NCBI GenBank assembly: GCA_920105625.2
Contig: OV050030.1
Span: 406,921,034 to 406,985,033 of the forward strand
DNA from: Clusia tigrina
Lineage: Eukaryota > Arthropoda > Insecta > Diptera > Clusiidae
Direction of reading: 5' to 3'
DNA length: 64,000 nucleotides
Shown: piece by piece, positions 21,598-58,300 of the stretch
Layout of the letters: the number at the start of each line of letters is the position of its first letter
Numbering within the stretch: position 1 is the first letter of the stretch
The notes under the pieces: model-generated
Databases searched by the model: none
What the model saw: only the letters and a program-made list of their open reading frames with translations
Told to the model about the DNA's origin: nothing
Position numbers and translations under genes: made by a program

Positions 21598-23281
21598 ACA
21601 CGAAAACGGGAATTTAGTGACGGATGTGCAGAGCATATTCACGTTATGGAGGGAACACTTCTCGAAGCTGCTGAATGGCGACAGCGCTAATGATAACAAT
21701 GAAGATGAACCCGACCCCACGGTTGCTGACGATGAACATGAAGGAGTGCCCCCCGACTATGACGAGGTCTTGCTAGCTATTAGGCGGCTCAAAAAGAACA
21801 AAGCCGCCGGAGCTGATGGTATACCAGCGGAGCTATTCAAGGCTGGCGGCGATGAGCTCACGAAACGCATGCACCAGCTCATCTGCAAAATATGGTCGGA
21901 GGAATCCATGCCCAGCAACTGGAACCTAAGTGTGCTCTGCCCAATCCAGAAGAATGGTGATCCGGCAATCTCTGCCAACTACCGCAGGATCAGCCTTCTG
22001 AACATCGCATATAAGGTCCTGTCGAGCGTACTCTGTGAAAGGCTGAAGCCCATCGCCAATGAACTGATTGGGCCTTATCAGTGTGGCTTCAGGCCTGGTA
22101 AAGGCACCATTGACCAAATGTTCACACTACGCCAAATCCTGGAGAAAACCCTAGAGAAGCAGATCGACATACACCACCTTTTCGTCGATTTCAAAGCTGC
22201 ATTCGACAGCACCGAAAGGAGTCAGCTGTACGCCGCTATGTCTGAATTTTGCGTCCCTGCTAAGCTAATTCGGCTGTGCAAAATGACGGTAAGCACCACC
22301 ACTGGCTCAGTTAAAATCGGTAATGACTTGTCCGAGCCGTTTGTTACTGAGCGAGGATTCAGACAAGGTGACTCCTTATCGTGTGTTTTCTTCAATCTAA
22401 TGTTGGAAAAAATCGTACGCGCAGCAGATCTAAATCGCACAGGCACTATCTTCCAGAAGAGTGTCATGTTACTGGCGTACGCTGATGATATTGACATCAT
22501 TGGCCATAACAGCCGCGCCGTGAGTGTTGCATTTTCCGGCTTGGAGAGAGAAGCGAGGCGAGTGGGTGTAGCGGTAAACGAGGACAAAACGAAGTACTTG
22601 GTGTCAACACACAAAGAGTCTCAGCGTCTTGGACACCACGTCACTGTTGGCGACTACCAATTTGAAGTTGTGATGGACTTCATTTATCTGGGAACCAGCA
22701 TCAACACCACGAACGATGTCAGCAAGGAGATCAAGCGAAGAATCAATCTTGCCAACAGGTGTTACTTTGGGCTCAGTAGGCAATTGAGAAGCAGAGCCCT
22801 CTCTCGACGAACAAAAATTACGCTCTACAAAGCCCTCATCCTTCCCGTCCTGCTGTATGGTGCCGAAACCTGGACGATCGCAAACAACGATGAGCGAGCT
22901 TTGGGGGCGTTCGAGAGAAAAATTCTTCGAAGGATCTATGGTCCTATATGCGTCTGCGGAGAGTATCGAATCAGATGGAACAACGAGCTGTATGAGCTGT
23001 ACGCCGACATTGATATAGTTCAGCGCATTAAAACGCAGCGGCTGCGCTGGCTGGGACTGGATGAAGGTGCTCCGGCGAAAAACGTGTTTGAATCGATGCC
23101 GCCGGGTGGCGGACGCAGGAGGGGGAGCCCACCACTACGTTGGAAGGACCAGGTTCAAGAGGACCTGGCTGCACTTGGTGTTTCCAATTGGCGCCAGCAT
23201 GCGCGAAGCAGGGACGACTGGCGAAGGCTAATAACTCAACAAATAACCAGAAATGGTTGTACGCCAATTATGATGATGATG
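21598..23281 (+). mobile_element. 5'-truncated RTE-clade retroposon with 7-bp target duplication
   Basis: The insert ends with the trinucleotide run ATGATGATGATG typical of RTE elements. It is bounded by ATAGGAA at 21591-21597 and 23282-23288, a direct duplication of comF sequence. Removing the insert and one ATAGGAA restores continuous comF homology. The 5' end is truncated inside ORF2, as usual for target-primed insertion. The reading frame is undamaged, so the insertion is young relative to the decay of the bacterial genes. Confidence 0.9.
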
Positions 23282-23302
23282 ATAGGAACCTCTGCGTTCT
23301 GA
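21599..23302 (+). CDS. RTE ORF2 reverse transcriptase, N-terminally truncated, open
   Basis: The frame is open from the element border at 21599 and reads into flanking comF DNA before a TGA at 23300. It lacks the endonuclease domain. It carries the thumb-to-palm order of RTE polymerases: WREHFSKLLNGD, KNKAAGADGIPAELFKAGG, NYRRISLLNIAYKV, GFRPGKGTIDQMF, FVDFKAAFDS, GFRQGDSLSC, the catalytic box YADDIDIIG, and NEDKTKYLV. It ends with the C-terminal LPVLLYGAETWT and RIYGPICVCGEYRIRWNNEL segments and a GGGRRRGSPPLRWKDQV end. The catalytic Asp residues are intact. Because it lacks a promoter and the endonuclease it is unlikely to be active, but it is the least decayed ORF in this block. Confidence 0.9.
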   Translation, partial: HENGNLVTDVQSIFTLWREHFSKLLNGDSANDNNEDEPDPTVADDEHEGVPPDYDEVLLAIRRLKKNKAAGADGIPAELFKAGGDELTKRMHQLICKIWSEESMPSNWNLSVLCPIQKNGDPAISANYRRISLLNIAYKVLSSVLCERLKPIANELIGPYQCGFRPGKGTIDQMFTLRQILEKTLEKQIDIHHLFVDFKAAFDSTERSQLYAAMSEFCVPAKLIRLCKMTVSTTTGSVKIGNDLSEPFVTERGFRQGDSLSCVFFNLMLEKIVRAADLNRTGTIFQKSVMLLAYADDIDIIGHNSRAVSVAFSGLEREARRVGVAVNEDKTKYLVSTHKESQRLGHHVTVGDYQFEVVMDFIYLGTSINTTNDVSKEIKRRINLANRCYFGLSRQLRSRALSRRTKITLYKALILPVLLYGAETWTIANNDERALGAFERKILRRIYGPICVCGEYRIRWNNELYELYADIDIVQRIKTQRLRWLGLDEGAPAKNVFESMPPGGGRRRGSPPLRWKDQVQEDLAALGVSNWRQHARSRDDWRRLITQQITRNGCTPIMMMMIGTSAF

Positions 23303-23849: not shown

Positions 23850-24660
23850 TAAGAGATAATGTATATAAGTTAGGATATATGAGGAGTGATATAAGTCGGG
23901 AAAGATTTGAGATTATGTTACCAGATCTAGAGTCCTGTAGAAAAAAACAAAGCCAAGAAAACTTGATTTCTACGATGTATTTTGTGGAGTGTTAACGTTC
24001 TGAAAAGCGGTTGTCAGTGGAGAATGCTACCAAAAGAGTTTCCAAAATAGCGCAATTGTTACGACTATTTTAAGAAGTGGAGTGAAAAACCAGATGCAGA
24101 TAAAGAAAGTGTTCTGGAGCTGGTGTTAAAACAAAATAGTTGGCGTGGTCCGTCAAAACAATGGTCGGAAAGAAAAAACCCGCTTCTGCATAATTGATGC
24201 ACAGAGTGTAAAAAATGCAGATACTGCTGAAGAAAAAGGCTATGATGCAGGCAAAAGATTTCAGGAATAAAACTCCATATTGCAGTAGATACGCAAGGTG
24301 TGCCCCATGCAGTTTATATAAGAACAGCAGAGATAACTGACCGTAGCAGTGCTGTGAGAATGGTCGAAAATGCAAAAGAAAACCTCTCGGGAGTTAAAAA
24401 TGTACTGGTTGATGCAGGCTATACTGGAGAGAGTTTTGCAACTCTAATAAAAACGATTTTTGGTGCAACCGTTGAAGTGATGAAAATAAATGAATTACAT
24501 TCCTTTGTTGTATTGCCCAACAGATGGGTTGTGGAGCGATCTTGTGCTTGGTTAGAAAAATGTAGAAGATTGTGCAAAAATTGTGAGCGAAAACTCAATA
24601 CTAGCCTACAAATGGTCGTTCTGGCTTTCACTGCCTTACTTCTGAAAAGATTATGAACAG
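23850..24660 (+). pseudogene. IS5-family transposase, Wolbachia-type
   Basis: A frameshifted transposase runs from about 23879 (MRSDISRERFEIMLPDLES), through a region in several frames that includes CIIDAQSVKNADTAEEKGYD. It ends in an open C-terminal part (24300-24656): GVPHAVYIRTAEITDRSSA, NVLVDAGYTGESFATL and VVERSCAWLEKCRRLCKNCE. These are the second Asp and the catalytic Glu contexts of IS5/IS1031-group DDE enzymes common in Wolbachia. At least four frameshifts precede 24300. It sits between comF and the protease gene. I could not define its terminal inverted repeats. Confidence 0.85.
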
Positions 24661-24682: not shown

Positions 24683-26166
24683 TTAGATCTCATATATAGA
24701 ACCACTCCTATGTTCCCCATTTCTTCGATCTGGTAAACGATTTTCCTTATTTTGCAAGGATTCCTGCTCTATAAAAATAGCCTCTTGTAAGTTCATTATA
24801 TTACGCAAAGGTATTACAGATAGTTTCTTTCCTGGCCAAGTGTTAAGAAACTGTACTCCTCCAGTATAAACAGCCATCAACGCATAATAAACTGCCCACC
24901 AACCACAGTCACTTCCATTCTTTAAAAACTATTTCGTTCTCTTTACAAAAAGGGAGCAATATTAAGGTAGTCTGATCATCCACAAAGGTTGTACCCTTAG
25001 TCAAACCTTCCTTTAATCTTTCAGGAATCTTTTTTTCAGCAAGAGAATCAAAAAAGAAAACTTGATACTGATCATTATTTATTTCTTCACCCAATAAATT
25101 TCTATATTTTTTAGGCAGCAATACCCAGCTAATCCAGTGAGAACCTCCTTCTTTTTTATCAATACCAGTCGAATCATTAGTAAGAACTGTTTCAGTGTTA
25201 GCTATAGAAATAAAAGGCTTATCTACCTCAGCACCATAATGATCATTTATTTCAGAACCATCTTCAACTCTTTGACAAATATGTTTCAGTGAATCTCTAA
25301 AAGCTTCCTCGTTATTAAACCCGAAGTTAATAGGACTAATATAATAGGCAACCCGATTATCATTATTTGCAATCGCCTTATTCATAAAATTCTTTATATG
25401 ATCAATATCTGCCCATTCTCTAGAATTACCTGAATCATCACTACCGAATGTTACTTGGTTTAGTCCATGGTAAATATCAATTGCAGTAAGATGAATTTTG
25501 CCTTGTAAAGAATCGTGATTAGATTGAGCCTGCACTTGTGACTGTTGTTCTGCTCCTTCCTCAAAATCATAAATGAAAGAAGGGCTGTTTCTATCTACTA
25601 CACCATAAATCTCTTCCCTAGAAACTTCTATAGCTTCTTCAATATCTTTTTCAATGCTACTAAGAAGTGGTACAAAATGGTTCCTGTAATTAACTATATA
25701 AATTAATATTAATCCATCTATCTCTTCATCTCTTAATTCTATAACCTTAATTTTCACGCCATACTCTTCACATATCATTTTTCCTTCAATTTCGAGTCTT
25801 CATCAACTTTAGAATTTTTACCTCTGAGTCAGAACTAGGATTTTTAATATCTTCTGCAGTGAATTCAATACGTGGTGAGGTTTCTCACTCTCTCTATTTA
25901 GAGACTTATTAAACCATGAATCATTTTGCAGAGCACTCAATTCTTTCTGTGCATATTACTTGCAGCTTCTCCGTAAAGACTTTGCTAAACCTTTTATCAC
26001 TTGTAATTAGACCATTACTTTTTAGTTCATTCAACCCTTGAGCAACTGAATCAAAAAAACAATCCCCTTCACCTACAGCAGCTCCTATTTTAAAGCCTTT
26101 AGGTAATTCTTCTCTTAATTTCTTTAACAGTTTTTCACGTTCTTTTCTTTCCGCTATTTTCTTCAT
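24683..26166 (-). pseudogene. OTU plus Ulp1 double cysteine-protease gene, symbiont-type
   Basis: The N-terminal part (26166-25921) starts with a basic helix, then the OTU nucleophile motif GEGDCFFDSVAQGL. After a stop at 25921 and a frame change near 25800, OTU homology resumes with MICEEYGVKIKVIEL and NHFVPLL, carrying the expected His. From about 25500 a C48/Ulp1-type fold follows: LTAIDIYHGLNQVTFG, the His motif GGSHWISWVLLP, the Asp motif QVFFFDSLAEK, and then the Cys motif GSDCGWW at about 24890, one frame away from the preceding ORF. Such enzymes remove ubiquitin or ubiquitin-like modifiers. OTU and Ulp1 modules occur together in large Rickettsiales effector proteins, including relatives of the CifB family. 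At least three lesions make it inactive here. Confidence 0.8.
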
Positions 26167-26622: not shown

Positions 26623-28903
26623 TTATTTGCTTTTCCCTATTCCACTAATACTCTGTTGTTGAAGCGATATATCATCCAAGGGAGTGAAAGGAACTCTTCT
26701 AACTTTTTCATATAGTGTACTAAATACCTCACGCCGATTATTTTTGACAAGATTGTTTAAATATTCTGTTCTATTTCCTGCCTTATCAAAACAAAGATCA
26801 TATAACTTTTCAAAAATGTGACAAGTATTTATCCCTACTCCATATAATATCTTACTTGATAAATTTTTTGGTGTAAAAAGTTTTTCCTTGGCGAAGAAGT
26901 GATTTAAATGATTTTCTTTAAAACATGATGTGTGAAAATTTCTTAAAATAGAAGAGGCATTCTTTCCTGCCATGGTTAACACATTTGATAGATAATCCGG
27001 CTTAAAACCAACCTTATAGAAATCATTTAAAAACTGTGTTGCGTTTCCCGTCTCATCAAAACAAACATCATGAAAATTTTTTAAAGCAGAACAAATATTG
27101 GCTTTTGCTCCGTGTAATATCCCAGATAAATTAATTGCTGTAAAACCTCCTTCTTTATTTAAAAAATGGTATAAATACTTTTTTGTCTCTCCTATAAAAC
27201 AAAAATCGTGAAATTTTTTGAAACTATCAGCTGATCCACTCAGTATACTACATAAATCACATGGCCTAAAACCTTCCTTATAGAAATCATTTAAAAGCTT
27301 TGTTCTTTCCCTTTTCCCATTAAAACAAACACTATGCAGCTTTTTTAAATTAGAAGAAGCATGAACCCCTGATCCACATAACATACAGGATAAGTTGCTT
27401 GGCTTAAAACCCTCCTTACAGAAATCATCTAAAAGTTCTGTTCTTTCCCCTTTTTCATCGAAACACAGATCATGCAATTTTTGAAAAGCATCCTTAGCAT
27501 TAGCTCCTGCTCTACTTAACATACTAGATAAGTTATGTAGCGTAAAACTTTCTTCCTCATCTTTTTTCTTAACAAAGTGCTCTAAATGTTGAGTTTTACT
27601 TCCTTCTGCATCAAGCCAAAGATCATATAATTCTTTAAAAGCTTTTGCAGCATTAGCTCCCGCTCCACCTAAAATACTTGATATATTAGATAGATTTATT
27701 CCTTCTTTTCCAAGAGTTTTTAAATATCGTGACTTTTTTCCGTTCTGATCAAACCAAAGATCATATAATTCTTTAAAAGCTTTTGCTGCATTAGCTCTTG
27801 ATCGATGTAAAATACTGGACATATTAGCTAAACTCATTCCGTTTTCTTCTAGACTTTTTAAATATTGAGTTTTATTTCCTTCTGCATCAAACCAAAGGTT
27901 ATATAATTCTTTAAAAGCTTTTACAGCATTAGCTCCTACTCCACTTAAGATACTAGACATACGAACTAGATTTACTCCACATTCTTCCAGTTTTATTAAG
28001 TATCGTGTTTTTTCCCCGTTCTGATCAAACCAAAGGTCATATAATTCTTTAAAAGCTGTTGTAGCATTAGCTCCTGCTTTACCTAAAATACTGGATACAT
28101 TAGGTAGATTTACTCCTTCTTTCTCTAGAGTTTTTAAATATTGAGTTTTATTTCCTTCCGTATCAAACCAAAGGTCATATAATTCTTTAAAAGCTTTTGT
28201 AGCATTAGCTCCTACTCCACTTAAGATACTAGACATACGAACTAGATCTACTCCACTTTCTTCTAGTTTTATAAGGTATCGTGTTTTTTCCCCGTTCTGA
28301 TCAAACCAAAGATCGTATAATTCTTTAAAAGCTCTAGAAGCATTAGCTCCTGCTCCATGCAAAATACTAGACATATTAGCTAAACTCATTCCCGTTTCTT
28401 CTAGAGTTTTTAAATATCGTGTCTTTCATATAATGCTTTAAAGCTTTTACAGCATTAGCTCCTGCCTTACTTAAAATACTGGAGATACTAGATAGATTTA
28501 TTCGGTTTGCTTCTAGAGTTTTCAAGTATTGAGTTTTATTTCCTTCTGCATCAAACCAGAGATCGTATAATTCTTTAAAAGCTTTTGCAGCATTAGCTCT
28601 TGATCGATGTAAAATACTGGACATATTAGCTGGGTTTATTCCATTTCTTTTCAGAATTTCTAGTCTTTTTTCTCTAATTAAAAAATCTAAGAACTGATCA
28701 AATTCAGGTGTTCCATCTCTACCAATCACACTTTTAGCAAATTTAGTTTCCTCATTGTGTAGCCTCTTCGATACTACGTCAACACAACGCCTCCGTTTTC
28801 CAGAGCTAGGACCATCTTTAGGACTTTCCTTGGCTGAACTCCTTGAATCACTACTTTGTTCTCGTAGTCGTTTCGATTTTGCCAGAGTGTCGCTAGGATC
28901 CAT
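26623..28903 (-). pseudogene. Tandem helical-repeat protein resembling TALE-like repeats
   Basis: The start at 28903 gives an N-terminus with basic, nuclear-signal-like patches (KSKRLREQ; GKRRRCVDVVSKR). Fourteen repeats of about 46 residues follow. The core is a short helix (NMSSIL), two highly variable residues (HG, SG, GK, HR, GG, SR, CG, TM, YG and others), then GAN and a second helix (AFKELYDLWFD), a turn with G and a third helix (YLKTLEE-like). The first seven or so are nearly identical at DNA level; the last five are diverged and Cys-rich. Helix, variable pair, Gly-containing loop and long helix is the plan of TALE and Bat repeats, though these units are longer than 33-35 residues. A deletion near 28430 in repeat 2 shifts frame. 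The end is KSK at 26623. Function is unknown; DNA binding is inference. Confidence 0.75.
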
Positions 28904-33840: not shown

Positions 33841-36585
33841 CTATCTTAAGTTCAGTACATATAGCTTTAATTTATTTTTGAAGATATTGATAGATTTTGC
33901 GTTTTTGATTTCATCAGGTAGTGTGTTGAATTGTTTTATTGCGCTGTGCTTGAAACTTTTCAGTTGTTTTGTTGTTCTGGCTTTTGGAACTTCCAAGTTG
34001 TGTTTTTGTCGCGTGTTATGGTTGTGAATTGTATTTCTTGTTGTTAGTGCCAATTTAGATTTGAGCATGCAGTTCTTGACTTTGTAAATATATTTACATT
34101 TTTCTACGTAAATCAGCTGGTTGATGTCCATTTGTTGAGTATTTTTGTATAAATTTTTTGTTGAAATCGTTGGATTTTGGTTATATAGGACTCTAATTGA
34201 TTTATTCATCAGCCTTCCAATTTGCTCTACTTGAAATTTGTTGCTTTGGCTCCAAGTGCATAGGTTGTAACGAATTTTGGAAAGAATGTATCCCGTGTAT
34301 GTACGTTTTGCTGTTTTTCTTTCAAGTGTGCCAAGTCTTTTTACCGCTCGTACTATAGGTAGAATGGAATTTTTTATTTCTTTAATGTGTTGCTCATAGT
34401 TTAGTTTTTCATCAATAACCATACCCAGGTATTTTGTAAGCTTAACCTTCTCGATTTCGATATCGTTGATTTTTACTTTTATATTTATTTCAATGTTGTG
34501 ATTTGTTCTAAAGATAATGTAATTGGTTTTTTGTATGTTAATGCTAAGTCCATTTCCACATGCCCACTCATAATATATCTTCATGTCATGGTTTATTCTG
34601 TCTTCTAGTTCTTTTTCTGTTCTTGCTGTTGTAATAAAATTCGTATCATCGGCATAAATGTTGTAGACTGAATTAAATTTGCAATTTTTTATGTTGTTTA
34701 TATATAATAAATAAAGTCTTGGGCCCAGGATCGATCCTTGAGGCACTCCAATTATACTTGTGAGCTCTTCACTACATTCGCCATCGATTCTTACGATATG
34801 AGGCCTGTTGTTGAGGTAGCTTTGTATCAACTTGTTAGCTACTCCTCGTATACCTATATCATTTAGAGTATTAAGCAATTTTGTATGATCAACAAGGTCA
34901 AATACTTTTGAAAGATCTATAAATGTTGCTGCAACTAATTTTTTTTCATCTAGTTCGCCGTATATTTTTTCCATCGATGATGTTATCGCTGACTCAGTAC
35001 CGCTACTCGCCAGGAAACCAAACTGATTTTTGTCAAATCCTATTGTTGTATTGATAAAGCCTTCGATTCTATTATCAATCGCTTTTTCGAACACTTTGCT
35101 AAATGCATTCAATACTGAGATTGGCCTGTAGTTTTCGCAGTTTTCTTTTTTACCCTTCTTATAAATTGGTGATATAATGGCCTTTTTTAAACAATTTGGG
35201 AAAATTCCAGTTGTGAAACATTTGTTAATCATATCGACAATTATAGATGAGATTGTTGGCAGCAATAGTTTTATATCCTTAACAGATATTCCATCCACTC
35301 CCTTTGCCGCATTGCTATTAAGGTTTGTAATAATGTGTTGTATTTCATTCTGGCTAACTGGTTTAAGAAAAATTGATTTTGGATTTACTATATTCGATGT
35401 AACTATATTTGTTGTTCTAGTGTTTTTCGCTAAATTTATTGCTGCTTCATTAAAGTATTTATTAAACTTGTTTGTAATTATTTTTTTGTTTTTAGTTGTC
35501 TGTTCTTGACTTATACTTGAGGTGTTCTTTGTTTCATCCTTATTTTTAAGTGTTGAGTTAATAACGCGCCATAATTGTCTTGTTGTGTGTATGTGTTTCT
35601 GCCTGTTGTTTTTTATTAAAGACTCTACATCCTTTTTAATTTTTTTGTATTCATTGTGTTTATTTTGATCATAAGGTTGAGATTTCCATTTTTTGTATAG
35701 TTCTTGTCTATGCTTTAGTTTTTTTTTAAGTTCAGCTGTGATCCAATTGTTATCTCGAGACCTGATTTTGATATGTCTAGTAGATATTTTTTTCGCATTT
35801 TGTATTATTTGTATTAATTCTTCTAGTTCTATTATTGTTCTGTTATTAACCTCATTTTTTACTATATCTATCATTTTATAATAATTTGTTTTTGGTATGA
35901 TATGATCTTTCATCGGTTGTTTTTTCGGTTTTAGTTCTGTTATTTTTGCCGTGGTATATTTGTGATCGGAAATGTCCGTATCCTCCAGATTAAAGCTTAT
36001 TTCGTGTGTTGTATCGACATTTGAAATAATGTGATCTATAAGTGTATTTGAGTTGTTCGTTTGTCTTGTAGGTAAATTGTTGTTAACAAATGTAAATCCG
36101 TTGGTAAGTATCAGGTCTGAGTATTTGATGACAGTATTTGTTCGTTCTAATAAGTTAATGTTAACATCGGCAAAGTAGATACAGTTTTTTCTATTTAGCA
36201 GCTTTTCTTCAATGAAATCAATAAACGTGTTATTATTTTCATTCGGAGCCTTATAAAACGTACCAATCGATATAGGTTTTTTCATGTTTGTTATTTCAAT
36301 TAATGTTAGGTTGTAATTTTCTTCTTTAATGAGTTCATTGTATGTAATGCATTCTTTAATAAAAATTACAGTACCACCACCACGTTTTTCATTTCTACAG
36401 TTATGTATGGAGTTATAATTTGGTATGTTGTATGTTTTTATTTCGTTGTAATATAGCCATGTTTCTGTGACAATTATCACATCTATATTTTGCAAGTTAT
36501 TGACCATTATTTCTAAGTCATATAATTTATTTCGAATACTGCATATGTTTAGGTAGAATATATTTAGGCTAGAGTTTTCTTTCAT
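33841..36585 (-). CDS. Jockey/CR1-like non-LTR ORF2, endonuclease plus reverse transcriptase
   Basis: An uninterrupted 914-codon ORF. The APE-type endonuclease (about residues 5-215) shows VTETWL, RGGGTVIFI, FADVNINLL and the SDH motif at 206-208. The reverse transcriptase (about 410-700) has GVDGISVKDIKLLL, YRPISVLNAFSKVFEK, FIDLSKVFDLVDH near 560, GVPQGSILGPRLYLLYIN at 613 and YADDTNF at 644-650. No RNase H domain follows, which favours the CR1/jockey-like side over I. The start ATG at 36585 overlaps the ORF1 stop as ATGA. The product nicks target DNA and copies the element RNA onto it. The frame is intact, but ORF1 is truncated, so autonomous activity of this copy is doubtful. Confidence 0.9.
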   Translation of the reverse strand: MKENSSLNIFYLNICSIRNKLYDLEIMVNNLQNIDVIIVTETWLYYNEIKTYNIPNYNSIHNCRNEKRGGGTVIFIKECITYNELIKEENYNLTLIEITNMKKPISIGTFYKAPNENNNTFIDFIEEKLLNRKNCIYFADVNINLLERTNTVIKYSDLILTNGFTFVNNNLPTRQTNNSNTLIDHIISNVDTTHEISFNLEDTDISDHKYTTAKITELKPKKQPMKDHIIPKTNYYKMIDIVKNEVNNRTIIELEELIQIIQNAKKISTRHIKIRSRDNNWITAELKKKLKHRQELYKKWKSQPYDQNKHNEYKKIKKDVESLIKNNRQKHIHTTRQLWRVINSTLKNKDETKNTSSISQEQTTKNKKIITNKFNKYFNEAAINLAKNTRTTNIVTSNIVNPKSIFLKPVSQNEIQHIITNLNSNAAKGVDGISVKDIKLLLPTISSIIVDMINKCFTTGIFPNCLKKAIISPIYKKGKKENCENYRPISVLNAFSKVFEKAIDNRIEGFINTTIGFDKNQFGFLASSGTESAITSSMEKIYGELDEKKLVAATFIDLSKVFDLVDHTKLLNTLNDIGIRGVANKLIQSYLNNRPHIVRIDGECSEELTSIIGVPQGSILGPRLYLLYINNIKNCKFNSVYNIYADDTNFITTARTEKELEDRINHDMKIYYEWACGNGLSINIQKTNYIIFRTNHNIEINIKVKINDIEIEKVKLTKYLGMVIDEKLNYEQHIKEIKNSILPIVRAVKRLGTLERKTAKRTYTGYILSKIRYNLCTWSQSNKFQVEQIGRLMNKSIRVLYNQNPTISTKNLYKNTQQMDINQLIYVEKCKYIYKVKNCMLKSKLALTTRNTIHNHNTRQKHNLEVPKARTTKQLKSFKHSAIKQFNTLPDEIKNAKSINIFKNKLKLYVLNLR

Positions 36586-37926: not shown

Positions 37927-40189
37927 TTAGTACAAGAAGGGAATACATCTAAAAGAAAACATAAAAACTATAAAATAAAAAAGTACAAGGTACGTTATAC
38001 CCCTCCGCTGGTAGGAGGCGGCTCTTCTCCCGGTAGGATCACCACCTTCGTGATAGCTTCGAATTAGCATTCCACGTGCGGTCCGCACATCCGCAACACG
38101 CACTTTTCCATCAGGACCAGGGTGCGTATCGGTGACCCTGCCCAGCCGCCATTCTTGAGGCGCTATTTTGTCTTCCCGCACAACCACTAACTCACCCACC
38201 TTGACATTCACTTGAGCCGTCCGCCACTTACTCCGCCGTTGACACTCGAGAAGATATTCGTTTTTCCACCTGATGCTGAATTGATGGGCCAGCGCCTTCA
38301 GTTTTTGCCATCGGTTCAAAATTGAGAGAAAGGGTGTTGTATCCGGAGGCTCAGCTGGTGCCAACAGTGGCGCACCCACCAAGAAATAACCAGGCGTCAG
38401 CGCCTGGAGATCCGTGGGGTCCTCAGACAGAGCGCTGATAGGCCTAGAATGAAGACACGCCTCGATGCGCGCTAAGAGAGTCACAAATTCTTCAAACGTG
38501 TACTTAAGTTGCCCTGCCATGCGCTTTAAATGGTGCTTGAAACTCTTGACCGCTGCTTCCCAAAGGCCCCCCATATGTGGAGCGTGGGGGGGATTAAAAT
38601 CCCACTCGATCTGAGTATGAAAGTGACCCACCACGGTTCGGTCACGGATTTCGCGGAGCACCCGCTGGAAATCAAGCCTCAACGCCTTTTCCGCGCCCAC
38701 AAAGTTCCGACCATTATCCGAGTGCATTTTCAAAGGACATCCCCGGCGGGCGATAAACCGAGACAATGCCGCAAGGAAGGCAGGAGTACTCAAATCGGTA
38801 GTCGCCTCAAGGTGAACTGCTCTCGTAGCGAAGCATACAAAGATGCAGACGTACCCCTTCGTAACGTGGCATGCCCACCCCTTATAGTGCTTGATATCAA
38901 ACGGCCTCGCGAAATCAACTCCAGTATGGGTAAAAGGACGTGATCACGTGGTACGTTCAACCGGAAGAGCTGCTGTTGTCGACGCTTCTTCCACAGAATA
39001 CATGTCTTACATTGGAGAATTGTGCTTTTAATCGTCGTTTTCGCTTTTGCAATCCAATATTGGGTCCTGATTAGCCGCAGCATTAGCTGATTCCCCCCGT
39101 GTAGGGACACCTGATGGATGAACTTCACCATTAGACGAGTCAAATGACCATAGTATGGCAGAATGATCGGGTGTCTCTCCGAAAATGGCAAATGTGTAGT
39201 GACCGCCAACCGACCATTTACGCGCAGAGTACCATCGGAGTGCACGAACGGATTCAGAGCCAAAAGCGACCTGGAGCTGGATATCGGCTCCCGTGCCACA
39301 AGTGCGCTGTATTCTTTTGGGAAATACATTTTCTGCGCGAGCACAATAAGGCAAGTGGTCGTTTTAGCGATTTCTCCCCGAGTAAGCGGGGACCCCCTGT
39401 CAGGAGTCATGTCCTGATGTTTCACCGAACAGTGGCGCATAAAGCGGCGCACGAAACTCAACACTCGGAGGGCCCTAGAAAATGAGGAGAAGCGCAACAT
39501 TGGGTCGTCCGCAGAGGACACATATACTACATGACATTTTGCAGGTCGTTGCCCTTCATCGGTTGCTAACACGTTTTCGTCCAACGGAGGTGGCCACCGT
39601 TTCCGCTCTTGCTGCAGCCAGGCCAGGCCTTCCCACCAGAGTTTGTTGTGGAGTAGTGCATCAGGTGCCACACCATGGCTAGCTAAATCTGCTGGGTTAT
39701 CTTCTGAGCGGACATGACGCCAGTTGTTCACACCTACTTTACTGGTAATGGCAGTGACTCGATTCGCCACGAAGACTTTCCACACGTGGGGTGGCTTTCG
39801 CAGCCATGCCAACACAATCGTAGAGTCGGACCAACAAAACAAGTTATCATCTGAAATATTTAATAGCGGTTTAAGAGGGAAAATCAGCTCTGCTAAAAGT
39901 GTTGCCCCACATAGTTCTAAACGTGGAAGAGAGATAGTTCTCAATGGGGCCACCCGCGATTTCGCCACTAGCAAATGGGTAGAGATGGAATTTTCACCTT
40001 TACACCGAACGTAAAGGGCTGCAGCATATGCTAGCTGAGAAGCATCACAGAAGGCGTGGAACTCAATATCGCGATCAGGTGCAGATCGTACCCAGCGAGG
40101 CACGCGTACTTGAGAGATTGCCTGATACTGCGATAAGAAGTGTGTCCACCTTGTTAAAGTGGTAGGAGTAAGTTGCTCGTCCCAACCTA
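37927..40189 (-). pseudogene. BEL/Pao 1 pol, RNase H and integrase part
   Basis: From 40103 the RNase H-like domain reads PRWVRSAPDRDIEFHAFCDAS, LPRLELCGATLLAEL and LFCWSDSTIVLAWL, then VRSEDNPADLASHG. The zinc-binding part follows with LIRTQYWIAKAKTTI and LQCKTCILWKKRR. After two compensating frameshifts (about 38945 and 38800) the integrase core shows DNGRNFVGAEK and FNPPHAPHMGGLWEAAVKSF, with the DUF5641-type C-terminus (VGELVVVREDKIAPQEWRLG) and a stop at 37927. The integrase inserts the DNA copy into the host chromosome; this copy cannot make a continuous polyprotein. Confidence 0.9.
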
Positions 40190-42849: not shown

Positions 42850-43966
42850 TTTGCCACTCTATGTGAAGCTGACAAGCAATTCACACACAACCCGTGTTTG
42901 CGCACCAAGCCCCACCGAGCTGATACGGTGGCGGCGTGGAACGCAGGACAATTTCGCACCGAGTGTGCAGACCGCCTGCACACTTTGCACCCTTTTGGGG
43001 GCAACACTTACTGGATGGGTTTGCACCCGTGCTGTTCGCGGTTGATTCGGCTGAACCCTTATTTGTGATGAACTGGAGCCTTGCGACCGGAGATCCGAAA
43101 TCGCCTCGAGTGTATGAAACCGCAATGACAAGAAGTCATCCATCGCCTTCCATTCTGGAATATCTGCGCGGCCCCCCATGGTCTGTTCCCACAGGGACAA
43201 TGTGAGCTCAGGCAGCCGCATGGAGCACAAGTATACTAAAATGGCATCCCAACTCTCAACGTCGATGCCGTAAGATGTCAGTGCAGCGATACAGTTGCCG
43301 ATGTCACGCTGTAGGCGTTTAATTTCCCCACCATCTTCTCTTCTAACCGGGTCAAGGCCCAACAGTGTCTTCAATTGGTTGTTGATCTGGATGCGCTTGT
43401 TGTCGTAGCGCTCCAGTAAGTTTTCCCACACTTGCTGAAAACCCGCCTCAGTAATTGGAATTTTGGGGACAATTTCATGTGGTTCTCCCCGGGTCTTAAG
43501 GGACAAATGGTAGAATTTCTCCGGATTAGACAGCCGCGTGTTGTTAATGAATAGTGCTGTAAACATGTCACGAAACGTTGGCCATGCAGCATAACTCCCT
43601 TCAAAGGGAGGGATATCACAAGGGGGTACGTGGATGCTGTGCGCCAATGATAAAAATGGCTCCCCTGTAGTAGGAACGGGAGTTGCCTGCTCTAAACGTT
43701 GTCTCACTTCCGCGATCAAAATACGACCCCGCTTAAAAGTATCAAAGCTTGACTCGAACCGCTGTCCGATTGACTCTAACAGTGATTCACCGTCTTTCAT
43801 GACCCGCGCCTCGGACATGGCAGTTATTTTTGCAGTTTTAAGCGAAGCCCACCGAGCATCCAATTCTGCTTCATCAAGTTGAAGTGATATAATGGAGTGA
43901 CTGTCCGGCGAGCACCGTTCAAAACGACTTATGAACATCAGAAGTTCATCTGCCGCCGAAATATAC
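42567..43966 (-). pseudogene. BEL/Pao 1 gag
   Basis: From 43966 the frame carries the coiled region (ISLQLDEAELDARWASLKTA), the DUF1759 capsid-like domain (PPCDIPPFEGSYAAWPTFRD; VWENLLERYDNKRIQINNQL) and a linker. After a frameshift near 42980 it continues with zinc knuckles: CKVCRRSAHSVRNCPAF, CVNCLSASHRVANC and CSTCRERHHTLLH. The N-terminus is interrupted at 43966 by an LTR-like insert. The ORF's apparent start at 44046 (MGLRAHCMCLRR) lies inside that insert and is not genuine. Confidence 0.88.
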
Positions 43967-44413
43967 TGTAGTGTATGAAAAGTATATGTACACAAACGCC
44001 AACACCATACGCGGCGTAGGCACATGCAATGTGCGCGGAGACCCAACGTAAGTACATCGAACTCTCATGTAAGAATATTTACGTTACGAAGCGCGAACAG
44101 CGCGCACGTTTTTGATTACGTTGCATTCTAATGTTCGATGCCCTCGAACGAATGTACGCTGGCATTGACTGTGATACTTTCCGCTGACATTGCAAAAGCC
44201 CTCTTTATTAAGAACTATATTATATACTAAGTCTTAGTACATAAGAAATTAAAAGTATAAATAGCAATAAGATTTTATCAATAAATCAGGTTCGATCTGG
44301 AAACCAAACCTTTCGTTTCTCATCAAATATTTGGCTGTACTCTAGTAGTCGCCGATTGAAATTGTGCGCTAGCTCACGCGCCGCTAAATTAATTAATTGA
44401 GCCCATCTTTACA
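43967..44413 (+). mobile_element. LTR-like insertion in BEL/Pao 1 gag
   Basis: Sequence unlike gag begins TGTAGTGTATG and ends CATCTTTACA. It contains a TATA box (GTATAAATAG, 44253-44262) followed about 25 bases later by AATAAA, the order of an LTR promoter and polyadenylation signal. The bases after it (TGGCGATCCTGCC) could be a tRNA-Arg-type primer-binding site. No target duplication is seen, so the borders are provisional. Confidence 0.4.
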
Positions 44414-55319: not shown

Positions 55320-58300
55320 CAACCTCACAGTCGGCCATTCCACCATACAGGAGGCGTCCTCGTCTCCAACGTCGTCACTTTCGTAACCTTCGAAATTCGG
55401 TAAATTGCACCATGGTTTCAGTTTATCAGAAGCGTACACCGAAGTGTCATGTCCTTGTTTACGTTTAGATCCAGGCACATCTTCGATCACATACCTGTCG
55501 TTCCCAAGTATCTTTGTTACGATGAATGGACCTTTATACGGTGGCTCTAATTTACGTGAGGCACCTGTACTTATTGGTTCGGTTTCTGCCAGTACAAGAT
55601 GTAGTATGCTGGTTCACGGCGCTTCGCGTCAAACGATCGTTTGGCCTTAGCCCGCTGCTCGTCGATTCGCGATGCTTCTTGCTCCTGTATTATTCGTAGT
55701 TCCTCGTCCCCTTTCACTTCATCTTGATGTAAGGATAGGATTAATTTATTTTGTAGTGTCTCTCGGTCGATAGTTGAATAACAATTCGTGCGGCAAACGT
55801 CCAGCCGTCTTATTCTTCGCTGAGTTGATTGTCCATTGTATCGCTCGGAGTTCTTCGTCCCAACACTTTTTCTCGTTCATTGATGGCAACAAAATTGCCA
55901 AGATTGTTCGGTTCGTTCGTTCAACCTGCCCGTTAGCACGCGGTGAGCGTACTGCATTACGAATTTGTTTTATGTCGTGGTTCTGACAAAACTGCTTGAA
56001 TTCGCGGGATGTAAATGCGGTTCCGCGATCATAAACTATTCGAGTCGGACTCCCGAAGTAGCTGTTGACTTCGTTGAGCACAGGGAGAACATGCTTGGTT
56101 GCAGTGCTTTTTGCTGCACGTACTATTGTTAACTTCGTGAAAGCACACACAATCACTAGAATATGTTTGTTCTGCTTCTTGCTCTTCAGAAATGGTCCTA
56201 AATTGTCTTGAATGGTCTTGAATGGTATCGGTTCGATGTAGTTATAATGATACTCTCCTTCTTTCCTACCGCCTCGTTGCTTATTGTAAGCGCATTCCAC
56301 ACATGACTTTATAAACGCCTTGACGAAATTTCGCAAAAGTGGAAACCAAAAATATTTTTGGGCTTCTATCGTTTTTTCGGTGCCAAACTTTTTCATGCAC
56401 ACCTTGTATTACGTTATATCGTAATGATTTTGGTACCACCCACCGTTGGACACCTTTCTCCTTCCGAAATAATCTGCCGTTCTTAATTTGGTATTCGTCA
56501 CTCGCAATTTGTTCTCCACGTGTTACTCGTTCTACGATCTCGTGTATCTTCTCATCTTGAAGTTGCATACTATACAACCAGTCTGTCTCTAAATTAACCT
56601 TCGCCACTTTTAAAGATGCAGTGTCCGTTTCGCAGCTGCTTTCGCATGGTGTTCTACTGAGAAAATCTACATGTTCCATCCGTGTTCCCGGTCGATGCTC
56701 TAGTATTACATCAAAGTCCTGTATACGCAGCCATCACCGCGCTATTCTTGGTATTAATTCACTTTTCTGCATAGCCGTCGTAAGTGCGTTACAGTCGGCT
56801 ATGACCGTAATCTGTTTACCTTGGACATAGTACCGCAAACGTTCCAAACTATTAACTACCGCCAACGCTTCAAGTTCATAACTATGAAAATTGTTCTCAC
56901 TGTCACTCGTTGATCTGCTTTAATACGCCACCGGTTTCCAATCTCCATTGTCATTCTGCATTAACACGCCGGCGAGGCCAATCGCGCTCGCGTCGCTATG
57001 TATCTGATGTTTTGCGTCTTCTCGATACGGTGCCATAATGGGCTCCGATGTTAGTGCTGTTTCCAATTCATTAAGAGCTTTCTCTTGTTTATCCTGTCCA
57101 CTCGAAAGGCTGTTCTTTACATAGAAGCAGTGGCTCGCTGATAATTGAATAACCAGGCACAAACCGTCAAAAATACCCACTTAATCCTAGGCATTTACGT
57201 ACTTCTGTTGTGGACACTGGTGTAGCAAAGTCTCTCACTGCTGCCGTCTTAACAATTCCCGGCCTCACTCCGTTAGCGTTAAGTTGATGCCCTAAGAACT
57301 GTATAGTCTGTTTCAAAAAGTCGCATTTGTTTATATTCAATGTTAAATGTAATTGTCGTAGAGCCTCGAAGGCACGCCCTAGTTTCTTGTACATTTCATT
57401 GCTACCTACCAGGATGTCGTCCATGTAATGGATCTATCGCCCGGTTCTTTTTTACCTTTGATACGCTGCATTAATCTCTGAAACACCGCCGGATCATTTT
57501 TAAGCCCGAATGGCATCCTCTTGAATTCATACAGCCCCTCTGTTGTAATGAAGGCGGTATATTTCTGGCTGTTTTTCTCGAATATCCACTATTTAGGTCC
57601 AAAATTGAAAAATATGAGTATTTCACTGCTTCGCTCAGGCGCTCTTCAATGTTTGGTGTTGGATATATTTCCTTTACTACCTGCTGATTCAGTCTCCTGT
57701 AGTCAACGCAAAGCCTTTCGTTGCCGTCCTTCTTCTTCACTAGTATCATTGGGCTAGCGTATGTTGACTCAGATTTCGTTATAATGTCGTTTTCCAAAAG
57801 CTCATTAAGCATCTTTTCTACAAGGTGTTTCTTCGGTTCTGGTACTCGCTATGGCTTTTGGGTAATTGGTGTGTTCGCCGTCACGTCAATAGTCATTTCC
57901 ATGGCATCCGTGAGACCAATGTTACTCAGATTTTCCGCAAAAATATCAATATATTCGGCTAGAATATGTTTCAGATCTTTCCTTACCTTTTCATCAGCTA
58001 TATTACATACGATATTTTCCAAGTTGATACTTCTTGGTTCTACACTAGTCCTTGCCACTTTCGACGAGGCGAATATTAGATTGGCATTCCCAATTACTGC
58101 TGTCAAGCCTGGTTTGGAGAATAAATCCTGCCCAAGGAGTACACCGGTAGTTAATGTGTCATCGTTGACTACATATAAATCTAATTCTACATTCACGTCG
58201 TCAAGGTGAACGGTTGCCTCTAGTTTTTGATGAATTTCCTGCTCGCCGCCACATATGCCTCTGATCGATTTTCAAGTTTATTAGCAGTTGTTTTTCGTAT

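Follow-up and report, generated by a model that had tools for sequence, protein, structure and literature searches.

DNA reading by tandem helical repeats has been described for TALE-like proteins, which are known from plant pathogens, from endofungal bacteria and from marine metagenomes; a Mycoplasma genome holds distant fragments. Such proteins are defined by repeats of 33-35 amino acids (aa) with one variable diresidue at positions 12-13 (PMC11261895), and position 13 is reported to adjoin one base (PMC4066763). An earlier screen for TALE-like architectures covered repeats of 30-43 residues only (PMC5472282), so that repeats of 46-58 residues would have been passed over. We analyzed a stretch of 64,000 nucleotides from the fly Clusia tigrina (contig OV050030.1, positions 406,921,034 to 406,985,033, forward strand; hereafter the window), which carries an array of such longer repeats at 26,623-28,903. 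With moderate confidence, we read this array as a broken copy of Wolbachia type lying among retrotransposon genes, whose repeats would, according to structural models, form a TALE-like superhelix and would likely read nucleic acid through residues of the first loop of each repeat.

A second point of comparison is provided by the CifB-type OTU/Ulp1 effectors of Wolbachia: CifB types V and VIII are reported to contain OTU and Ulp1 domains, and OTU relatives have also been described from Wolbachia loci outside cif and from a spider genome (PMC11342252). No symbiont array of the kind described here is reported in the titles and abstract openings among the literature matches listed, a set whose scope leaves out subscription papers and most preprints, and term searches within PMC12445526, PMC11342252, PMC13320244 and PMC13170316 returned no passage on such arrays. 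Our best reading is that the array represents a TALE-like nucleic-acid-reading domain of animal symbionts that is not a member of the TALE family by sequence.

Repeat array and predicted fold

Fourteen repeat units lie on the minus strand of the window in two overlapping open reading frames (ORFs) that are in different frames, twelve in a main ORF and two in an upstream ORF. They are listed below with associated features; P numbers denote proteins of the homologue set, and triplets are the residues at repeat positions 11-13.

28376..28903, minus strand: upstream ORF of 175 aa, with an N-terminal basic patch, a repeat-0-like stretch and 2 units (HRS, SKA)
28787..28801, minus strand: basic patch GKRRR, located where an RKRxR-like patch recurs in the family
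28640..28759, minus strand: possible degenerate 'repeat 0' (EETKFAKSVIGRDGTPEFDQFLDFLI...), from sequence, with a similar stretch in P0002, P0039 and P0018
26623..28389, minus strand: main ORF of 588 aa, with 6 LYDLWF-type units, 6 divergent C-terminal units and a short tail
27547..28389, minus strand: units 1-6 of the main ORF, LYDLWF type, triplets HGA, SGV, GKA, SGV, HRS, GGA
26740..27546, minus strand: units 7-12, divergent C-terminal block, triplets SRA, CGS, SGS, HGA, TMA, YGV

A preliminary description had counted about 14 units of 46 residues, and both figures hold: the unit length is mostly 46 aa (42, 43 and 51 aa are also present), and Tandem Repeats Finder gives periods of 138 and 276 bp across the array at the DNA level. 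The units are real, but what had been taken for one stretch is divided between two frames, and the array is broken, since the repeat frame is lost within the upstream ORF, in its second unit. The first units follow the pattern NMSSIL-xxx-GANAxKAFKELYDLWFDxxGNKTQYLKTLEKEG, and the last six make up a divergent block, which is found, aligned, in homologues as well (alignment A1). The best local alignment of the upstream ORF with the N-terminus of P0002 is 62% identical (107/172 columns), and the stretch at 28640..28759, read by eye, may be a worn repeat.

Concerning the fold, we predict that the array forms a TALE-like superhelix. Two arrays were modelled, those of the window and of Wolbachia wPpe; TAL-effector-type entries occupy structural ranks 1-34 for one model and 1-14 for the other, and TAL effectors and BurrH outscore anything else returned by Foldseek, which, taken alone, reaches significance for one model but not the other. 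In the predicted repeat, helix A begins at position 3 and helix B near position 14, with the variable residues between them; a third helix and a hairpin are also present. The loop joining helices A and B holds the variable residues in 11/11 units of the wPpe model and in 7/12 units of the weaker window model.

TALE repeats have two helices. Their register to the symbiont repeats rests on helix borders, and the likeness to TALE-like proteins (TAL effectors, RipTALs, Bat, Btl (BurrH) and MOrTL) lies in the predicted superhelix, with repeats approximately one-to-one with those of dHax3, in variable residues that follow the first short helix and directly precede a mostly conserved Gly, and in the overall plan of a variable number of central repeats with divergent end repeats and a basic patch. 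However, the symbiont repeats measure 46-58 aa (mostly 46 in the window, 47 in Robbsia, 58 in wPpe) instead of 33-35, have the additional third helix and hairpin, occur fused to OTU and SET enzymes, and come from animal-associated Rickettsiales. The variable pair had been placed at the specificity-determining position of TALE repeats; first-loop variability is indeed found in homologues, but at positions 11-12, often joined by 13 (as in wPpe), and not at 12-13. Moreover, the TAL_effector profile PF03377 has no match in 13 repeat proteins or pieces at E <= 1, nor in 4 more at E <= 0.01. Because repeat length departs from that of TALEs and PF03377 has no match, although the predicted fold agrees, we do not class the array as a TALE-like protein but propose that it works like one. 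The earlier idea of a TALE-like family is largely upheld, with these differences, by the predicted nearness of two arrays to TAL effectors and BurrH and by the variability of homologous arrays at the first-loop site.

Pfam and NCBIfam matches on the window repeat ORFs (Rtt106_N, LXG, rSAM_mat_DynA and others) are below cut-off and fall on different units, and above-cut-off Pfam matches in the wPpe, Robbsia and P0053 repeats include no single passing stretch; both were set aside as repeat-composition noise. Sequence searches of the PDB (window ORF, alignments A1 and A3, P0080) returned nothing relevant, and PHROGs only unknown-function families, on the repeats.

The variable site within arrays

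A repeat profile built from 339 seed units recovered 770 units in 80 proteins, and 551 of 769 aligned units were kept (<= 3 gaps; 218 dropped), giving 344 distinct units of variable type and 201 distinct others, as classed by the LYDLWF tryptophan. Entropy taken over the whole family confounds divergence among proteins with changes inside arrays, and positions were therefore compared within arrays. Across 35 arrays of at least 5 LYDLWF-type units, position 11 differs most (0.77), followed by 15 and 4 (0.66 each), and position 12 is thirteenth (0.47); across 51 non-overlapping arrays of at least 3 units, position 11 is again top (0.79) and first in 1912/2000 bootstraps, with position 12 eleventh (0.53).

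The concentration of change is clearest between near-identical units. Where two units have at most 4 differences, positions 11 and 12 together hold 30.6% of them (array mean; 36 pairs, 8 arrays), a share that becomes 17.6% at <= 6 differences (70 pairs, 15 arrays), 13.0% at <= 8 (152 pairs, 22 arrays) and 11.6% at <= 10 (249 pairs, 28 arrays). A uniform spread would give 4.3%, which is a generous null because other positions are structurally constrained. The residues are drawn from a small set, with S, N, H or G at position 11 in 289/344 units and G, R or K at position 12 in 314/344, and position 14 is mostly a conserved Gly (272/344). The preliminary description had let its comparison depend both on a fold resembling the TALE superhelix and on variation of these two residues among homologues; the predicted fold is not unlike that superhelix, and the site does vary across homologues. 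In units 1-6 of the window, codons 11-13 only share first place for variability among three-codon stretches (32/239; 13.4%), so that the case for a variable site rests on the relatives.

Two further arrays were compared at the codon level. That of wPpe consists of ten full units at an exact spacing of 58 aa, plus an eleventh that diverges past position 18, with the triplets NGV, NGT, NGT, RKA, NGT, SGA, NGT, HKA, NGV, HKA and NGT. Over units 2-10, codons 11-13 rank first of 56 three-codon windows, with 67/194 nonsynonymous differences (34.5%; uniform expectation 5.2%) and zero synonymous differences in 36 comparisons; codons 2, 25, 42, 49, 53, 57 and 58 change too. The second array belongs to a plasmid protein of Robbsia andropogonis, a distant relative found by tblastn of plasmids (22% identity over 470 aa of P0003, E 2e-7). 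It shares with the symbiont family the variable site and a similar residue alphabet (S, N, H, D at 11; G, S, R at 12), but is betaproteobacterial and has another fused enzyme, a Peptidase_C80 domain, with 47-aa LSTNNIASIL-xx-AGGN repeats. Over its 15 units, codons 11-13 likewise form the top-ranked window, with 151 nonsynonymous and 25 synonymous differences, against 910 and 1266 in the array overall.

Two Klebsiella plasmid matches to the Robbsia protein, one of which adjoins ParB and lacks an annotated gene, were taken as chance. The last protein search also returned four distant proteins, P0079-P0082, with NISSIL-xx-SG repeats of ~38 aa (by eye) and a similar S/N/H alphabet; their repeat length falls between those of the Wolbachia and the TALE repeats. 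Nine Escherichia plasmid matches to P0080 were dropped (E about 3).

Homologues, fused enzymes and possible functions

Each homologue search scored only ~8,000 candidates, so counts are lower bounds: the main ORF has at least 24 homologues at E <= 1e-3 in a single-sequence search, and at least 77 when an alignment is used. Labels among these 77 are arthropod in 48 cases (bees, wasps, ant, spiders, isopod, butterfly, fly and bug, one of them flagged by its source as possible contamination) and Wolbachia or Rickettsiaceae in 12, with 17 carrying no organism label; the longest are 1,599 aa (Wolbachia-labelled) and 1,662 aa (arthropod-labelled). Both Wolbachia and Rickettsia harbour relatives. A first scan of genome contigs gave no relative, and a second round gave two loci, in Wolbachia wPpe (L002) and in a Rickettsia endosymbiont of Bradysia (L003); none was found in the phage records and viral contigs searched. 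The wPpe repeat gene lies between adk-like and rpoA-like genes of a ribosomal cluster (gene names by eye).

Several homologues join the array to an enzyme acting on proteins. P0039 carries an OTU domain (Pfam E 7e-6) close to that of the solved wMelOTU (E 3e-14), a feature shared with CifB-type effectors, and a SET domain is fused in the Wolbachia-labelled P0053 and P0068, in P0022 and in the wPpe protein. However, no NCBIfam or solved-structure match to CifB, whose core consists of REase (PD-(D/E)XK) domains, was obtained for the repeat family, N-terminal halves included, and the terms 'TALE', 'helical' and 'SET domain' have 0 occurrences in the texts of PMC12445526 and PMC11342252.

If the array works in the TALE manner, each repeat would likely read about one base through two or three variable first-loop residues, and the whole would be a modular reader, most likely of double-stranded DNA. 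The symbiont protein would be secreted and enter the host nucleus, where the array may carry its fused OTU deubiquitinase or SET methyltransferase to chosen sites of host chromatin. Nuclear-signal-like basic patches had been noted at the N-terminus: GKRRR at 28787-28801 stands, and RKRxR-like patches recur in 20/80 proteins, many of the 80 being cut short, but a bipartite nuclear localization signal is not above chance (16 of 41 N-terminal regions, against 13.5 expected from shuffles).

A wider reading, which we hold tentatively, is that animal symbionts possess a programmable DNA-reading domain of their own, with repeats of 46-58 residues and its own code, employed on host chromatin as an array-SET histone methyltransferase and an OTU-array deubiquitinase, and that arthropods captured these genes many times and kept some as long open genes. 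If Wolbachia and Rickettsia do have a counterpart of TALE-like DNA reading, these heritable animal symbionts could direct their action to particular host loci, which would be a direct candidate mechanism of host manipulation, and how they choose host genes would become a testable question; the family would also provide natural methyltransferase and deubiquitinase fusions and a new repeat scaffold, possibly with a different code.

Some observations weigh against nucleic-acid reading through the first loop. Family-wide entropy ranks position 11 only fourth (2.78), behind 4, 15 and 31; position 12 has a modest entropy of 1.71, being Gly in 229/344 units; and the window model lacks a loop at this site in 5/12 units. 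Among the alternatives, the best placed is a protein-binding solenoid, an ankyrin- or TPR-like adaptor whose variable residues pick host protein partners for the fused enzyme. OTU and SET enzymes do act on proteins, one homologue, P0024, also has ankyrin Pfam domains, and Wolbachia is reported to target fly proteins with ankyrin repeats (PMC13170367). We nevertheless find it rather unlikely, with residues 11 and 12 nearly all small polar or basic and few hydrophobic, and with DNA-binding TAL effectors as the top structural neighbours; no row is titled ankyrin or TPR among the 50 structural matches listed for either model, which excludes neither.

Less probable still is a solenoid in the manner of MTERF or PPR proteins, which would bind RNA or select nucleic-acid structures and would not read DNA sequence. 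P0080 has a weak mTERF Pfam match, below cut-off, and the window ORFs have none; the MTERF family has a lower structural score than TAL effectors, and we know of no hypervariable loop pair in it. Neutral repeat turnover, in which the site would vary for being one of the least constrained in a structural solenoid and would have no part in recognition, draws on the higher family-wide entropy of other positions and on positions 4, 15, 18 and 31 varying nearly as much within arrays, but is very improbable given that changes in near-identical repeats fall first at 11-12, that codons 11-13 of wPpe are free of synonymous change and those of Robbsia stand out in an array otherwise dominated by it, and that a restricted alphabet is common to the family and Robbsia.

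Other features of the homologues are worth recording. At L003:9968-17102 a transposase-like stretch interrupts the Rickettsia array, and P0065 is probably a second copy in the same endosymbiont. Proteins of 1,036-1,502 aa from Nasonia (P0049), Trichogramma kaykai (P0062-P0064) and Eretmocerus (P0058-P0059) lie on insect contigs of 0.16 to 192 Mb and have only 27-42% identity to the window ORF; they may be domesticated host genes of the repeat family. The N-terminal halves of P0018, P0038 and P0039 contain two related tandem domains ahead of the repeats, with IHIQIEN...FSIN.YF.SF...IIYTN motifs (alignment A3), which have a PD-(D/E)XK-like look; the N-terminal halves of family members gave no profile or solved-structure match, and if active these domains would form a natural array-nuclease. 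P0020, P0027 and P0038 share a C-terminal domain after the repeats (DFAIHLVTSNHVVAIYR...), with no Pfam match above cut-off in P0020 and P0027.

Genomic setting of the window copy

The array is accompanied on the minus strand by further Wolbachia-like coding remnants, and the surrounding DNA carries retrotransposon genes:

25921..26166, minus strand: OTU-protease domain fragment (60 aligned columns, 73% identical to the OTU region of Wolbachia P0039)
24909..25778, minus strand: further part of the OTU protein (61% identity to P0039 over the first 61 aa), followed by a Ulp1-looking stretch
24300..24656, plus strand: IS5-family transposase fragment (NF033580 E 5e-25, below its curated cut-off; DDE_Tnp_1 E 4e-9)
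21617..23302, plus strand: reverse transcriptase, flank (RVT_1 E 2e-30)
33841..36585, minus strand: LINE-type endonuclease and reverse transcriptase, flank (RVT_1 E 1.3e-27, Exo_endo_phos E 1.1e-5)
37927-38793: DUF5641 match, flank
38790-40103: Pao retrotransposon peptidase, flank
42859-44046: DUF1759 match, flank
55746-56402: integrase, flank

The Ulp1-looking stretch has no Pfam match and no solved-structure match better than E 0.95. Its Ulp1-like look comes from a GGSHW motif that we take to be typical of these proteases, in a copy that is broken here; a DCGWW motif at ~24800-24910, on the minus strand in another frame, presumably resembles Ulp1 protease as well.

A match at E <= 0.001 was obtained for 8 of the 10 flank ORFs scanned against profiles, DUF5641 and DUF1759 being, as we assume, parts of BEL/Pao elements; a search of the window for tRNA genes found none. 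The preliminary description had placed the array in Wolbachia; the window, with its retrotransposon-bearing flanks, is not Wolbachia chromosome. The simplest reading is that a Wolbachia-type fragment of ~5 kb sits inserted in arthropod DNA, and we infer an arthropod host and a true insertion rather than an assembly error. The window copy most likely represents a decaying lateral transfer from Wolbachia to an arthropod genome, and as a whole is probably no longer functional.
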